Notes under the pieces: generated by a model
Told to the model about the DNA's origin: nothing
Database searches by the model: none
Seen by the model: only the letters and a program-made list of their open reading frames with translations
Origin: Arthrobacter sp. Br18
Lineage (GTDB): Bacteria > Actinomycetota > Actinomycetes > Actinomycetales > Micrococcaceae
Length of the DNA stretch: 37,440 nucleotides
Assembly (NCBI RefSeq): GCF_000520555.1
Contig: NZ_KI914847.1
Span: 1-37,440, forward strand
Direction: 5' to 3'
In this document: positions 15,130-19,622 of the stretch, piece after piece
How positions within the stretch are numbered: position 1 is the first letter of the stretch
How the letters are laid out: each line of letters begins with the position of its first letter
Made by a program: the position numbers and the translations under genes

Positions 15130-16122
15130 ATGAGCCGGGTCCACACTGAGCCTCTTCCTCCCCCCGCGGATCCATCCGGTTCGCTGTCCCGGGGTACGGC
15201 AAAGCGGGATAACCTGAAGAATTCCGCGGGCTCGAAACGCAGGTTCTCGCCGCGCGCCAGGCGTGAGGGGCTGGTCTTCCTGGCCCTGGTGCTGCCGAAC
15301 CTGGCGCTCATCGGGGTGTTCACCTACCTCCCGCTGCTGAACAACCTGTACTACTCCACGCTGAACTGGACACTCGGTTCCAGCAACGCCACGGTGATCG
15401 GGCTGGGGAACTATGTCACCTTCTTCACCTCGGGCGATGCGCCCCGCGTCCTCGGAACGACGGCGGTGTTCACGCTCATCACTGTGGGCGGTTCAATGGT
15501 GCTGGGCCTGCTGATAGCGCTGGCACTGAATCAGAGGATCCGCGGGACCACCTTCGCCCGGTCCGCGGTCTTCGCCCCCTACGTCCTGTCCGGGGTGGGC
15601 GTGGGCCTGGTATGGCTGTTCATCTTCGACCCGGTGTACGGGGTTCTCGCTTGGTTCCTGCGGGGCTTCGGCGCCACCAGCCCCCAGTGGATCAATGATC
15701 CGGACCTCGCGCTGACCATGGTCATCATCGTGTACGTCTGGAAGAACCTCGGGTACTGCGCGGTGGTCTACCTCGCCGGCCTGCAGTCATTGCCCAAGGA
15801 CATCATGGAGGCCTCGCAGCTCGACGGCGCCGGCGCGGTGCGTGCCTTCTGGAGCGTCAAGCTCCCGCTGATCTCCCCCACCACTTTCTTCCTCCTCATC
15901 ACCTGTCTGTTGAGCTCGCTCCAGGCCTTCGACCTCATCCGGATCATGACCCCGCTCGGCTCGGGCACTTCGACGCTGGTCTACGAGGCATACCTGCAGG
16001 CCTTCGGTGCGTTCAACCGGGCCGGGTACTCGGCCGCCATCTCCGTCATACTCTTCACCATCCTGCTGGTTGCCACCGTGCTGCAGCTGCGGTTCGTCGA
16101 GCGTAAGGTCCACTACTCATGA
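15130..16122 (+). CDS. CUT1-family ABC importer permease (UgpA/MalF type)
   Basis: A 330-residue inner-membrane permease with six predicted helices after a basic, Pro-rich cytoplasmic N-terminus of about 45 residues. The binding-protein-dependent transport signature (EAA loop, EASQLDGAGAVRAFW and following KLPLISP) starts near residue 227 and contacts the ATPase. The PNLALIGVFTYLPLLNNLYYS entry region resembles UgpA-type permeases, but substrate cannot be fixed from sequence. GAGG at 15118-15121 lies 8 nt before ATG 15130. It overlaps the second permease by ATGA. No ATPase gene is nearby, so a shared MsiK/UgpC-type ATPase is probably used. Confidence 0.93.
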   Translation: MSRVHTEPLPPPADPSGSLSRGTAKRDNLKNSAGSKRRFSPRARREGLVFLALVLPNLALIGVFTYLPLLNNLYYSTLNWTLGSSNATVIGLGNYVTFFTSGDAPRVLGTTAVFTLITVGGSMVLGLLIALALNQRIRGTTFARSAVFAPYVLSGVGVGLVWLFIFDPVYGVLAWFLRGFGATSPQWINDPDLALTMVIIVYVWKNLGYCAVVYLAGLQSLPKDIMEASQLDGAGAVRAFWSVKLPLISPTTFFLLITCLLSSLQAFDLIRIMTPLGSGTSTLVYEAYLQAFGAFNRAGYSAAISVILFTILLVATVLQLRFVERKVHYS

Positions 16123-16985
16123 GCACCACCGTCACGCGCCCCGAGCGGGCCCTTTCGCGCCGCAACCTCGCTGCTACCGTCGTCGGCGGTTACGTGCCCC
16201 TGATCCTGACCACCGCCGTCGTCTTCCTTCCCCTGCTCTGGATGATCCTCTCCAGCATGAAGATGCCCAATGAGATCGTCACCACCGACCTCGCGGTACT
16301 CCCGGCCCAGTTCAGCCTCGAGAACTATTCCGCCGCCGCCGACAAGGTGCCGTTCGGCCAGTTCTTCCTCAACAGCACGATTGTCACTGTCACCGGCGCT
16401 GCCATCAAGGTTGTCCTCGCTCTGCTCACCGCCTACGCCCTGGTCTTCGTGAGGTTTCCCTTCAAGCGGCTGATCTTCGTGCTGATCCTTGTGGCCCTGA
16501 TGGTCCCGCCCCAGGTATCGATCCTCCCGAACTACATCCTGATCACGGGCATGGGCGGCAGAAACACCTTGTGGGGCATCATCCTTCCCGGGTTGGGCAC
16601 TGCCTTCGGGACCTTCCTCCTGCGCCAGCATTTCCTCAGCCTGCCGGCCTCGCTGCTCGAAGCAGCCGAGATCGACGGCGCGGGGCACTGGCGGCGCCTT
16701 TGGCGGATCGTGGCTCCGGTGTCGGTGCCCAGCATCGCCACGGTGGCCCTGGTGACCATCGTGAGCGAGTGGAACGAATACATCTGGCCGCTGATCATCG
16801 TCGATGATCCCCGGTACATGACCCTTCCTGTCGGACTCACGCTGCTGCGCAATTCTGAGGGAGACGCCGCCTGGGGCATCCTCATGGCCGGTGCGGTCAT
16901 GGTGATCGTCCCGGTCCTCATTATCTTCGCCGCCCTGCAGCGCTACATAGTCGCGGGACTAACCCAGGGGTCGGTCACCGGCTAG
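16119..16985 (+). CDS. CUT1-family ABC importer permease (UgpE/MalG type)
   Basis: A 288-residue permease, partner of the preceding one. It has six helices, the first about residues 22-43, and the EAA loop EAAEIDGAGHWRRLWRIVAP from about residue 181. The ending LQRYIVAGLTQGSVTG is the classic C-terminus of MalG/UgpE-type subunits, where AGLTxGxVKG is near-universal; here Lys is replaced by Thr. It overlaps the upstream gene by 4 nt and is followed after 46 nt by the binding-protein gene. Confidence 0.94.
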   Translation: MSTTVTRPERALSRRNLAATVVGGYVPLILTTAVVFLPLLWMILSSMKMPNEIVTTDLAVLPAQFSLENYSAAADKVPFGQFFLNSTIVTVTGAAIKVVLALLTAYALVFVRFPFKRLIFVLILVALMVPPQVSILPNYILITGMGGRNTLWGIILPGLGTAFGTFLLRQHFLSLPASLLEAAEIDGAGHWRRLWRIVAPVSVPSIATVALVTIVSEWNEYIWPLIIVDDPRYMTLPVGLTLLRNSEGDAAWGILMAGAVMVIVPVLIIFAALQRYIVAGLTQGSVTG

Positions 16986-17031
16986 CTGCCTCCCGTTCCA
17001 CTCTCACCACCCTTCAACGAAAGGTTCCTTG

Positions 17032-18387
17032 ATGAAATCCATCCCCCTGCCGCCGCTGAACCGGCGCCATTTCCTCTCCTTCGCCGCCCTCGGCTCGGGC
17101 ACCGTCGCCCTTGCCGCGTGTGGCGGACCCTCGACGGCGCCGCCCGCGGAAGAGGAAGAGACGGACCTCGACTTCGAGGGCGTCACTCCGGCTGCTGCAA
17201 TCGAGTTCTGGTCGACCCACCCGGGGCAGTCGCAGGAAGTCGAGAAGGCGCTGATCGAGAAGTTCAATTCGTCGCAGTCGGAGGTCCAGGTCACGCTCGT
17301 GACGGCAGGCGCCGACTACGAGGAGATCGCCCAGAAGTTCCAGACTGCGCAGCAGGGCGGCAAGCTGCCCGCCGTCGTGCTCCTCTCGGATGTGTGGTGG
17401 TTCCGGTACTACATCAACGGGTCGATCATTCCCCTGGACGGGCTCATCGAGCAGCTCGAAGTGGAGACGGGCGACTACCGTGAGTCGCTGATCGCCGACT
17501 ACCAGTACGAGGACAAGCAGTGGGCGCTGCCGTACGCCCGGTCCACTCCCCTCTTCTACTACAACCGTGACCACTTCAAGGCCGCCGGCCTTCCGGACCG
17601 CTCCCCGACCACCTGGGAGGAATTCGGCGAGTGGGCACCCAAACTGATGAACGCCGGTATACCGGGACTGCAGACCGCCTACCAGTTCCCGGCCCTTGCC
17701 GGGTACGCCGGATGGTCCCTGCAGAACCACCTGTGGGGCTACGGCGGCGGGTGGTCGGACGAGTGGACCATGACGGCGGACTCCCCCGAATCCGTGGCCG
17801 CCATCCAGTGGTGCCAGGACGCCGTCTTCAAGCACAAATGGGCCGGCGTGTCCTCGAACGATGCCTCGGCCGACCTCTCGTCGGGAGCCGTGTCGGCGAC
17901 GGTCAGCTCCACCGGGTCCCTCGTGGGCGTACTGAAGGCGGCGCAGTTCGACGTCGGGGTGGGTTTCCTGCCCGGTGGTCCGGAAGAAACGGACCCGGTC
18001 TGCCCGACGGGCGGTGCGGGTCTCGGAATTCCCAGCGGCGTCACGAAGGAGGAGCAGCTCGCGGCGGCAATGTTCCTGAAATTCATGGGCGAGCCGGAGA
18101 ACACCGCCGAATTCTCCGCGGCTACCGGATACATGCCGGTGCGTTCCTCCGCTGATATGACGGCGGTGCTCGCCGTCAGCCCGTTGATCGGGACGGCCAT
18201 CGACCAGCTCGACGTCACCCGGCCGCAGGATTACGCCCGGGTGTTCGTTCCCGGAGCTGACCTCGAGATCGCCAAGACGGCCGCAGCGGTCCTGACTCAG
18301 CCGGGCGATGTCCAGACGGAGATGACCAAGCTGAAGGAAACTCTCGAATCCATGTATCAGCGGGATGTGGAGCCGAACCTGGCCTGA
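17032..18387 (+). CDS. ABC importer substrate-binding lipoprotein (UgpB-like)
   Basis: Extracellular binding protein for the importer, 451 residues. The N-terminus has a twin-arginine motif, NRRHFLSFAAL with Arg11-Arg12, and a lipobox LAAC with lipidated Cys30, so it is probably a Tat-exported lipoprotein. An acidic linker follows, then an extracellular solute-binding family 1 fold. The blocks KFNSSQSEVQV, the Trp-rich WGYGGGWS region and ATGYMPVRSSA are like those of UgpB, the glycerol-3-phosphate binding protein, which makes a phosphodiester or sugar substrate plausible but unproven. ATG 17032 is preferred to TTG 17029 because GAAAGG lies 7 nt before it. A strong terminator follows at 18471. 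Confidence 0.9.
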   Translation: MKSIPLPPLNRRHFLSFAALGSGTVALAACGGPSTAPPAEEEETDLDFEGVTPAAAIEFWSTHPGQSQEVEKALIEKFNSSQSEVQVTLVTAGADYEEIAQKFQTAQQGGKLPAVVLLSDVWWFRYYINGSIIPLDGLIEQLEVETGDYRESLIADYQYEDKQWALPYARSTPLFYYNRDHFKAAGLPDRSPTTWEEFGEWAPKLMNAGIPGLQTAYQFPALAGYAGWSLQNHLWGYGGGWSDEWTMTADSPESVAAIQWCQDAVFKHKWAGVSSNDASADLSSGAVSATVSSTGSLVGVLKAAQFDVGVGFLPGGPEETDPVCPTGGAGLGIPSGVTKEEQLAAAMFLKFMGEPENTAEFSAATGYMPVRSSADMTAVLAVSPLIGTAIDQLDVTRPQDYARVFVPGADLEIAKTAAAVLTQPGDVQTEMTKLKETLESMYQRDVEPNLA

Positions 18388-18470
18388 TGTGATCCGAGCC
18401 CAGTTCGAGGCGGCACCGGGCGCCTGGCATCCGGCGCCGAGCCTAACCCCTTTCCGCCAGAGGGGGTTTC

Positions 18471-18526
18471 GGCGGTCGTCGCAGCGTTCAGAAGCTCTGA
18501 ATGCTGCAACGACCGCCTATTTTCTT
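18471..18526 (+). terminator. Rho-independent terminator after the ABC transporter operon
   Basis: A 22-nt arm at 18471-18492 pairs with 18496-18517 with one mismatch and one G-U pair, around a 3-nt loop, and is followed by TATTTTCTT. This is a strong intrinsic terminator, 84 nt after the binding-protein stop, and it ends the + strand unit before map, which is transcribed towards it. With its symmetric stem it could also act on map transcripts, though no T-run is present on that side. Confidence 0.85.
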
Positions 18527-18564
18527 CCGGAGCCGCACCACTTTTCACGGCATTGAGCGGTTGG

Positions 18565-18593
18565 ACAGCGTGTCGTCCGGCAACACGCCGGTT
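18565..18593. repeat. 29-bp direct repeat, copy 1
   Basis: Identical over 29 bp to 18712-18740, 147 bp away. The unit holds an internal hairpin, CCGGC-AACAC-GCCGG. Similarity continues weakly on the right side (TTATCAGCA against TTGTCGGCG). It looks like a copy of a small palindromic intergenic repeat. Confidence 0.85.
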
Positions 18594-18679
18594 ATCAGCA
18601 GTTTCCGGCGCTGAATGGCGGCACATCCCGTGCGGCGCAGGCCCCCTTGCTTACCCGGAGGCCGACCTCTGGGCCCATT

Positions 18680-18780
18680 CGTGGCTGTCCTGCCCACGTT
18701 CGAGGGTGCGAACAGCGTGTCGTCCGGCAACACGCCGGTTGTCGGCGATATCGACTACAAAAGGTGGGCAGGAAGCCACG
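18680..18780. repeat. Inverted repeat enclosing repeat copy 2
   Basis: Arms 18680-18697 and 18764-18780 are reverse complements apart from one inserted base. Inside lie a second small hairpin (GTTCG 18698-18702 with CGAAC 18709-18713) and the CCGGC/GCCGG hairpin of repeat copy 2. The whole can fold as one multi-branched structure. Confidence 0.75.
18712..18740. repeat. 29-bp direct repeat, copy 2
   Basis: Exact second copy of 18565-18593. It is inside the larger inverted repeat 18680-18780 and about 55 bp from the map stop codon. Read on the - strand, both copies encode the same residues TGVLPDDTL in one frame because they are 147 bp apart, but there is no other sign of coding. Confidence 0.85.
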
Positions 18781-18794
18781 CCATGCGCAGAGAG

Positions 18795-19622
18795 TCAGCC
18801 CTCGAGCGGAACCGGGGTGACGCCGAGGGGCTCTAGGGCAGACACTCCGCCGTCCGCGGCGCTGAGGACCCAGATGCCGCCGTCGTGCACTGCCACCGTG
18901 TGCTCCCACTGGGAGGCGCGCTTGCCGTCGCTGGTGACGACGGTCCAGTCGTCGGCGAGCACCTTGGTGTCGAGCCCGCCGAGCACCAGCATCGGCTCGA
19001 TCGCCAGGCACAGGCCCGGACGCACCTTGGGCCCGCGGTGGGTGCTGCGGTAGTTCAGGACATCGGGCGCCTGGTGCATCTGGGTGCCGATGCCGTGGCC
19101 CACGTAGTCCTGCAGGATGCCGAGCCGCTTGCCGGGCAGTCCTGAGACATAGTCGTCGACCGCCGCCCCGATGTCACCGACGAACTTCGCGGAGGCCAGG
19201 GCCGCTATGCCGTGCCACATCGCGGCCTCCGTGGCCTCGGACAACCGTACGTCCTCCGGGCGGGGTGGGCCCACCAGGACCGTGCGGGCCGAGTCGGAGT
19301 GCCACCCGTCCACCACGGCGCCGCCGTCGATGGAGAGGATGTCGCCATCCCGCAGGACGTAGCTCCCGGGAATCCCATGGACCACCTCGGCGTTCACCGA
19401 GGTACAGATGCTCTTGGGGAACCCGTGGTACCCGAGGAAGTTGGAGGTGGCACCGGCTTCCTTCAGCACGGCTTCGAAGGCAGTGTTGAGGTCATCCGTC
19501 GTCGCTCCCACCGTCGCCGCGGACACCGCTGTGTCCAGCGCTCTCGAGAGGACGATGCCTGCCTCGCGCATGGTGAGGATCTGGTGATTGGTCTTGTACT
19601 CGATCTTCGGCTGGCGGAACAT
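18795..19622 (-). CDS. map: Type I methionine aminopeptidase
   Basis: Removes the N-terminal Met from new proteins. The 275-residue protein has the pita-bread fold motifs and a full metal-ligand set: Asp99 and Asp110 in SIDGGAVVDGWHSDSART, His in YVGHGIGTQMHQAP, Glu in LAIEPML and Glu in SQWEHTVAV; His82 in EVVHGIP is the substrate-binding His. It lies 9 nt after adk, whose stop overlaps the AGGA ribosome site. In most relatives infA follows directly; here the ABC cassette and the repeat region come next. Confidence 0.96.
   Translation of the reverse strand: MFRQPKIEYKTNHQILTMREAGIVLSRALDTAVSAATVGATTDDLNTAFEAVLKEAGATSNFLGYHGFPKSICTSVNAEVVHGIPGSYVLRDGDILSIDGGAVVDGWHSDSARTVLVGPPRPEDVRLSEATEAAMWHGIAALASAKFVGDIGAAVDDYVSGLPGKRLGILQDYVGHGIGTQMHQAPDVLNYRSTHRGPKVRPGLCLAIEPMLVLGGLDTKVLADDWTVVTSDGKRASQWEHTVAVHDGGIWVLSAADGGVSALEPLGVTPVPLEG

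Follow-up and report, generated by a model that had tools for sequence, protein, structure and literature searches.

Paired intergenic hairpins in Arthrobacter sp. Br18 belong to a repeat family coupled to the gene for an AbiEi–DUF559 nuclease

The stretch of Arthrobacter sp. Br18 DNA analysed here (contig NZ_KI914847.1, positions 1 to 37,440, called the window below) contains an exact 29-bp repeat on the 3' side of a methionine aminopeptidase-like gene, presumably map. The two copies are identical and spaced 147 bp apart, as a sequence-only reading of the window had reported (Table 1), and a 24-base core of the 29-mer has two matches in the window at up to three mismatches, against 0.00 expected from 100 shuffles. 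An ABC-transporter cassette (15130-18387) lies directly beyond the pair in this genome (G000; 3.54 Mb in 120 contigs). Between the gene for a substrate-binding protein and the pair there is also a 22-bp palindrome with a 3-nt loop (18471-18517); its GCGGTCGYYGCAGC arm recurs beside another copy at C66 (L005, L055), and a palindrome resembling it was seen by eye at locus L048 of G016.

Table 1. Repeat copies, hairpin elements and neighbouring reading frames in the window
Feature	Position	Strand	Detail
Exact 29-bp repeat, copy 1	18565-18593	.	ACAGCGTGTCGTCCGGCAACACGCCGGTT
Exact 29-bp repeat, copy 2	18712-18740	.	ACAGCGTGTCGTCCGGCAACACGCCGGTT
Hairpin element, type A (around first copy)	18535-18633	minus	outer arms 18535-18559 / 18609-18633
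Hairpin element, type B (around second copy)	18681-18779	minus	near-perfect outer arms 18681-18697 / 18764-18779
Inner conserved hairpin of element A	18568-18590	minus	CGGCGTGTTG-CCGGA-CGACACGC
Inner conserved hairpin of element B	18715-18737	minus	same sequence as in A: CGGCGTGTTG-CCGGA-CGACACGC
62-aa ORF made by the repeat, most likely spurious	18545-18733	minus	reads LPDDTL twice
Methionine aminopeptidase-like gene (presumably map)	18795-19622	minus	hairpin pair on its 3' side

The repeat unit is about 100 bp long, not 29 bp. The 29-mer is the common core of two different imperfect hairpins, elements A and B, which have the inner part in common and outer arms of different sequence. The arms of B measure 17 and 16 bp with one bulged base, while those of A are weaker. 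An inverted repeat had been noticed around the second copy, and it is there, but the first copy has such a frame as well. On the minus strand, an element starts with an outer arm of about 20 bp and about 20 nt often ending in a CTGATAAC-like sequence, followed by an 8-bp inner stem (GCGTGTYG/CGACACGC) whose loop has 5 nt, about 11 nt and the second outer arm. The sequence-only reading had placed a CCGGC/GCCGG hairpin at the core. That hairpin is visible in the window, but over 30 family members only 69% of its cells are paired, against 95% for the inner stem, and it is not a family feature. Both copies do read in one minus-strand frame, and the accompanying warning of false protein calls seems justified: 13 of 33 family copies have a stop in this frame within 30 codons, so the ORF is most likely spurious.

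A covariance model, R1, built from 30 copies including the two in the window, matches element A at 18553-18610 (minus strand, E 2.1e-11) and element B at 18700-18757 (minus strand, E 8.5e-10). At E<=1e-3 it finds 10 copies in G000 and 137 matches in 31 of 38 genomes of the Arthrobacter-like genus, with a maximum of 13 copies per genome. A DNA search places a relative of element B at G000:C28:128052 (E 2.7e-13). In a family sample of 245 genomes searched with stricter filters, 12 genomes have R1 matches at E<=1e-4, two of these from another genus. The 29-mer itself has no further copy within three mismatches in the whole of G000, as would be expected of a local duplication without a family, the alternative that the sequence-only reading had named. 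The dispersal of diverged relatives of the same architecture through this genome and its relatives refutes that alternative.

Hairpins standing alone, which we call solos, are intergenic in 32 of the 33 cases kept as loci, a few of which share one site. Of these 32, 25 follow the gene on their left in sense orientation, and none separates a divergent gene pair. For gene calling we used a simple script based on codon bias, and the names map, rpsM, pyrE, glmU, FrnE and polyprenyl synthase are presumed from the sequences. The hairpins have a conserved TGATAAC-like flank and terminal inverted repeats, the outer arms, which are weak in some copies. In G018 two solos enclose a gene (L078) that is unrelated to the nuclease described below and presumably DsbA/FrnE-like; hairpins near such a gene were also seen by eye in G010 (L111) and G034 (L113). 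This gene is possibly a cargo or a hot spot.

The position of solos 3' of genes, often in sense, would suit a structured RNA or transcription terminator in 3' untranslated regions, as would one inner-stem pair, U.G or C-G in all 30 copies and never A.C. Other results speak against such a role, which we consider highly improbable. The inner stem is without covariation, no Rfam match reaches the gathering score in the window stretch or at ten loci, and a consensus scan for a stem followed by a T run finds 0 terminator-like sites in 18300-18900. One hairpin of each nuclease unit, moreover, lies upstream of its gene. In the outer arms, among those of 97 hairpins with an arm score of at least 22, G.T mismatches (88) and A.C mismatches (79) show no strand bias; the palindrome is therefore kept at the DNA level.

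The sequence-only reading had proposed a search for a REP-associated tyrosine transposase (RAYT). None was found (PF01797, Y1_Tnp) in G000 or the other genomes of the genus, 0 of 38 in all, with 5 of 14 control genomes positive. The partner of the hairpins is instead a nuclease gene. Many R1 matches form same-strand pairs about 1.0-1.1 kb apart, and most of the pairs that we opened enclose a gene for a protein of about 275 residues in which an AbiEi_4 winged helix is joined to a DUF559 nuclease domain. Some same-strand pairs enclose other genes.

A protein search of the 38 genomes gave, by our own count, 39 nuclease loci at 50% identity or more, remnants included. Within 250 bp of 20 of these loci lie 30 of the 137 R1 matches, all 30 on the strand of the gene; by our arithmetic random placement would give about 0.02, in a count made by hand in which six of the 30 matches belong to the training set of R1. 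A direct search of the loci at a loose limit (E<=0.5 in 166 kb) finds hairpins on both sides of 30 of the 39, three of which (G000, G006, G017) had supplied training sequences. Both hairpins run with the gene in 28; the exceptions are G010 and G030 (C26), each with one near-symmetric copy that gets its higher score on the opposite strand. At E<0.01 on both sides and on the strand of the gene, 21 of the 39 remain. Four loci have one hairpin only (G028, G026 with doubtful strand, G022 and G003) and five have none (G037 at C1:706742, G036 at C24, G030 at C18, G014, and G035 at C21). The unit normally has one hairpin upstream of the gene and a second, in direct orientation, after the stop codon.

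Presence across genomes follows the same pattern. All 31 genomes with R1 matches carry the nuclease gene or a remnant of it, and the six without the gene have no R1 match: G009, G020 (68% complete), G025 and G027 have no nuclease homolog at E<=1e-8, and G023 and G033 have only paralogs at most 41% identical. G011, with no match in the genus search, has the nuclease and two weak flanking hairpins (E 0.0025 and 0.004). As the genomes are related, this co-occurrence is a count and not a probability. The coupling of gene and hairpin is well supported: it shows in where the hairpins lie and on which strand, in which genomes have them, and in the sequence of their outer arms.

The protein is an AbiEi-like winged helix fused to a DUF559/Vsr-like PD-(D/E)XK endonuclease domain. 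DUF559 is above its cut-off in all six nuclease proteins. PF13338 (AbiEi) exceeds its cut-off of 25 in two of the six (27.8 and 27.1 bits) and falls below it in two more (24.8 at L102, 15.2 at L110); the gene models at L101 and L112 are shortened at the N-terminus. Among 62 proteins, conservation of the residues E179, D206, E216-x-D218, H223, D232 and R235 (numbered as in G005) is 98-100%. A PDB sequence search returned a weak match only, to 3hrl, 'Endonuclease-Like Protein' (E 0.038). REase_MTES_1575, termed a novel Vsr REase in the part of PMC3710099 available, matches all six proteins below its curated cut-off.

Homologs of the nuclease at E<=1e-40 occur in 68 of the 245 family genomes, in 13 of the 32 genera sampled. 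There are none among 50,697 phage records and none in a scan of viral contigs limited to close relatives, and three plasmid records have one, annotated as hypothetical protein in two and as AbiEi antitoxin in one. By eye, we recognised no DUF1814-type toxin gene among the neighbours of the nuclease. One observation on the inner stem belongs here. Vsr cuts at T:G mismatches, and one inner-stem pair (columns 29/37 of alignment A1) takes only two forms among 30 copies, T.G in 19 and C-G in 11; with a Vsr-like partner nuclease this is suggestive only.

The outer arms follow the nuclease they flank. Between the two hairpins of one locus the mean arm score is 34.9, between loci 19.2, and over 27 nuclease loci the similarity of arms rises with protein identity (Mantel r 0.80, 0 of 5000 permutations). 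Units at each site look mostly vertically inherited, so part of this correlation is common descent and linkage. In the genomes with two nucleases each (G037, G013 and G001), the hairpins of one nuclease never best match those of its sibling, and in five of six cases they are most like the hairpins of a related nuclease in another genome (G013a is without a good match). In genomes with a tested nuclease, 10 of 28 solos match the flanks of that nuclease best, against about one expected; for the other 18 it is not ranked first. The two window elements divide in the same way. Among the 27 loci, copy A best matches the nuclease flanks of its own genome (31, with 20 for the next), and copy B has no clear nuclease partner, its best score being 20.5 and its own nuclease ranking 13th. 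Assignment of type B to the G016 nuclease was considered and not upheld by the arm comparison.

A winged-helix protein with a hairpin upstream of its gene also invites a regulatory explanation, in which the hairpins are operators through which the AbiEi-like domain represses its own gene and others. Antitoxins of the AbiEi family are reported to recognise inverted repeats within the promoters of their own genes (PMC7319586), and each unit has a hairpin upstream of its gene. The second hairpin, after the stop codon, does not fit, nor do the solos, with none of the intergenic ones between divergent genes and most of them 3' of their left-hand gene and in sense with it, and a promoter operator needs no outer arms of about 20 bp kept as DNA. 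The downstream hairpin and the 3' position of solos weaken the operator explanation and leave it unlikely.

Paired repeats are not confined to close homologs. We compared upstream and downstream flanks, with coordinates taken from the protein search and a score cut-off of 24 picked after seeing the scores, and found direct repeats beside 13 of the 18 homologs tested from other genera and beside 8 of the 12 distant paralogs (at most 41% identity). These 21 of 30 wider homologs have their own direct, palindromic flanking repeats, with aligned lengths of about 50-150 bp, and nine fail the test. The palindromes of the distant paralogs are of other sequence than the genus hairpins. Such paralogs had been considered as a negative control for flanking repeats and are unfit for it. 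Two of the 18 other-genus homologs (G089, G191) have weak R1 matches on both sides.

Loci with known hairpins pass the comparison in seven of seven cases, and the five close homologs without hairpins all fail it. Among unrelated genes, from which nuclease homologs had been removed by a phmmer filter, 5 of 134 reach 24, and one of the two outliers at 26 or more is the gene between two solos in G018. Nucleases in this control run reach 24 in 21 of 37 cases, an underestimate because many nuclease gene models start too late. Further afield, an Actinomyces oris homolog (32% identity, WP_271289585.1, hypothetical protein) lies between 78-bp repeats identical at 72 of 78 positions, which hold GTGTCC-GATTT-GGACAC, much like the inner stem of the genus hairpins. 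The Tsukamurella homolog tested has no flanking direct repeats.

Comparison of sites gives some idea of history. The sequence-only reading had placed the repeat at the edge of the ABC cassette, but the elements go with the 3' side of map. In G016 element B (a model match) lies 3' of map, followed by a decayed A recognised by eye, and the next called gene, presumably rpsM-like, comes 955 bp on from map, which leaves no room for the cassette. As G016 keeps these elements without the cassette, the elements of the window seem to predate the split of G000 and G016 and to be independent of the cassette. In 19 further genomes, of the 35 others with a map match, no hairpin 3' of map is found at E<=0.5. 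The window copies look old and ageing, and the exact 29-bp identity of A and B is most simply explained by local gene conversion between neighbours.

Judged by neighbour genes, the nuclease loci of the genus occupy six distinct genomic sites, in clusters of 18, 9, 5, 4, 1 and 1 loci with unflanked homologs included. At the largest, beside a presumed polyprenyl-synthase gene, 18 loci have the nuclease unit, or a relative of it, in common. G004 has one hairpin there (E 2.1e-6), the arms of which best match its own unit elsewhere (39.0, with 38.0 for that of G021). G021 has a weak hairpin (E 0.0045), G012 and G017 have weak or doubtful ones, and G025, G032, G005 and G014 give no model match. We had considered this as an empty site and rejected it as decayed, there being arm-like remnants, by eye, in G025, G005 and G014 and the weak hairpin in G021.

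A solo site of G002 could be followed into nine genomes. It is filled in G003 and G007, holds five tandem copies in G006, is doubtful in G008 (E 0.11) and leaves an arm remnant, by eye, in G019; G024, G022, G001 and G025 give no match. What the site records is an old copy that has decayed in some genomes and multiplied in tandem in another. No clean junction was found across the ten genomes, whose intergenic DNA is too diverged, and at none of the sites compared did we find a clean empty site, an excision product or a target duplication. The five hairpins of G006 (L236, G006:C1:93948-94501) have a period of about 124 bp and share a single intergenic site, at which each of nine other genomes has at most one. 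Inserts of about 850-960 bp, each with two small called genes and no hairpin, occupy the site in G001 (L238, C44) and G025 (L239, C8). G008 has a tandem array of three hairpins.

Much of this could be accounted for without any copying of hairpins in trans. Solo LTRs are single repeats left at old sites of a unit that has direct terminal repeats. By analogy, hairpin-gene-hairpin units might spread rarely, by any means, and all single hairpins, the window pair included, might be leftovers of recombination. The direct, not inverted, orientation of the hairpins allows such a collapse, and the lone or weak hairpins at the polyprenyl-synthase site (G004, G021, G012, G017) and the arm remnants of G014 are what it predicts. 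The arrays of five and three, and A beside B in the window, need extra steps, and no unit has been seen at most solo sites, few of which were examined. The analogy has its limits as well, as the repeats here are hairpins of about 100 bp and the one recognised gene of the unit encodes a nuclease. We think this account possible, with the balance somewhat against it. It overlaps the explanation we prefer, so that the chances we give the two are not shares of a single whole. At least some solos are likely to be collapsed units, given that the hairpins point the same way and given what G004 shows.

The explanation we prefer, and think probably correct, is that the window holds two non-coding copies of a hairpin of about 100 bp whose family has a partnership, like that of REPs and RAYTs, with an unrelated AbiEi–DUF559 nuclease. 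The nuclease unit normally carries one hairpin per side in direct orientation. The winged helix of the protein may bind the hairpin, and the nuclease domain may cut there or at a target. Units and hairpins could then be copied or moved in trans, as RAYTs are thought to act on REPs, with single hairpins arising either in this way or as the remainder of recombination between the two direct repeats of one unit. From the six genomic sites, the solos and the tandem arrays we infer that units move, and action of the protein on the hairpin is likewise inferred. The bolder step is to suppose that hairpins are copied in trans. Several results tell against our explanation: no clean empty site, excision product or target duplication turned up; copy B and most solos do not best match their own nuclease; five close homologs, nine of the 30 wider ones and that of Tsukamurella fail the flanking-repeat comparison; and neither phage records nor the viral contigs scanned for close relatives yielded a homolog. 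A wider proposal is that the AbiEi–DUF559 proteins of Actinomycetota are the mobility enzymes of an unnamed class of element, with direct hairpin ends of about 100 bp, gene-less hairpins spread in trans and hairpins specific to each clade, two of them in the window. This we advance tentatively, giving it slightly less than an even chance.

How does this compare with known systems? The sequence-only reading had suggested a REP- or MITE-like family. Dispersed, almost wholly intergenic palindromes agree with that description, and, against the account of REPs and RAYTs in the available part of PMC2817692, there are further likenesses in the DNA-processing enzyme gene between two palindromes and in a repeat sequence that follows the enzyme clade. 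The family is nevertheless not REP. The enzyme is a Vsr-like nuclease and not a Y1 transposase, the flanking copies are direct and not inverted, and the hairpins are about 100 bp long instead of 20-40, present in about 10 copies instead of more than 100, and without a GT(A/G)G or GTAG-type head. With MITEs and other small mobile repeats, as described in the parts available of PMC10969869 and PMC2229807, the hairpins have in common that they are short, non-coding and intergenic, with terminal inverted repeats. They differ in having two whole hairpins per partner unit and no related transposase ends known. Target duplication of hairpins was not seen, the intergenic DNA being too diverged. Solos resemble the hairpins of the nuclease unit, which is itself no known transposon.

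EDxHD homing endonucleases are linked to Vsr. They are named in the accessible part of PMC6083498, and the nuclease here resembles the Vsr-like REase_MTES_1575 of PMC3710099, as far as that is available, in its DUF559 domain and conserved E, D, ExD, H and D residues. It differs from both in standing alone between hairpin repeats in bacterial chromosomes. The AbiEi_4 winged-helix match recalls the AbiEi antitoxins of type IV toxin-antitoxin systems (PMC7319586, available part), but the C-terminal half of the present protein is a nuclease domain.

Our literature searches, with most subscription journals outside their scope, found nothing on DUF559 with a mobile element and direct repeats or on AbiEi with DUF559, and matches for DUF559 with palindromic look unrelated by title. 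The visible part of a 2025 report on a REP-finding tool (PMC12306157) gives large automatic REP counts for an Arthrobacter species, which may include the present hairpins and weigh against novelty. In the literature searched, the partnership of hairpin and nuclease, with its likeness to a mobile element, looks undescribed.

REP repeats have been tied to one enzyme family, the RAYTs, and this RAYT-less genus has an analogous partnership with an unrelated nuclease. The pairs of hairpin and protein are short and directly testable. If the nuclease moves DNA, a large orphan nuclease family would gain a function and the origin of bacterial intergenic palindromes a new answer.
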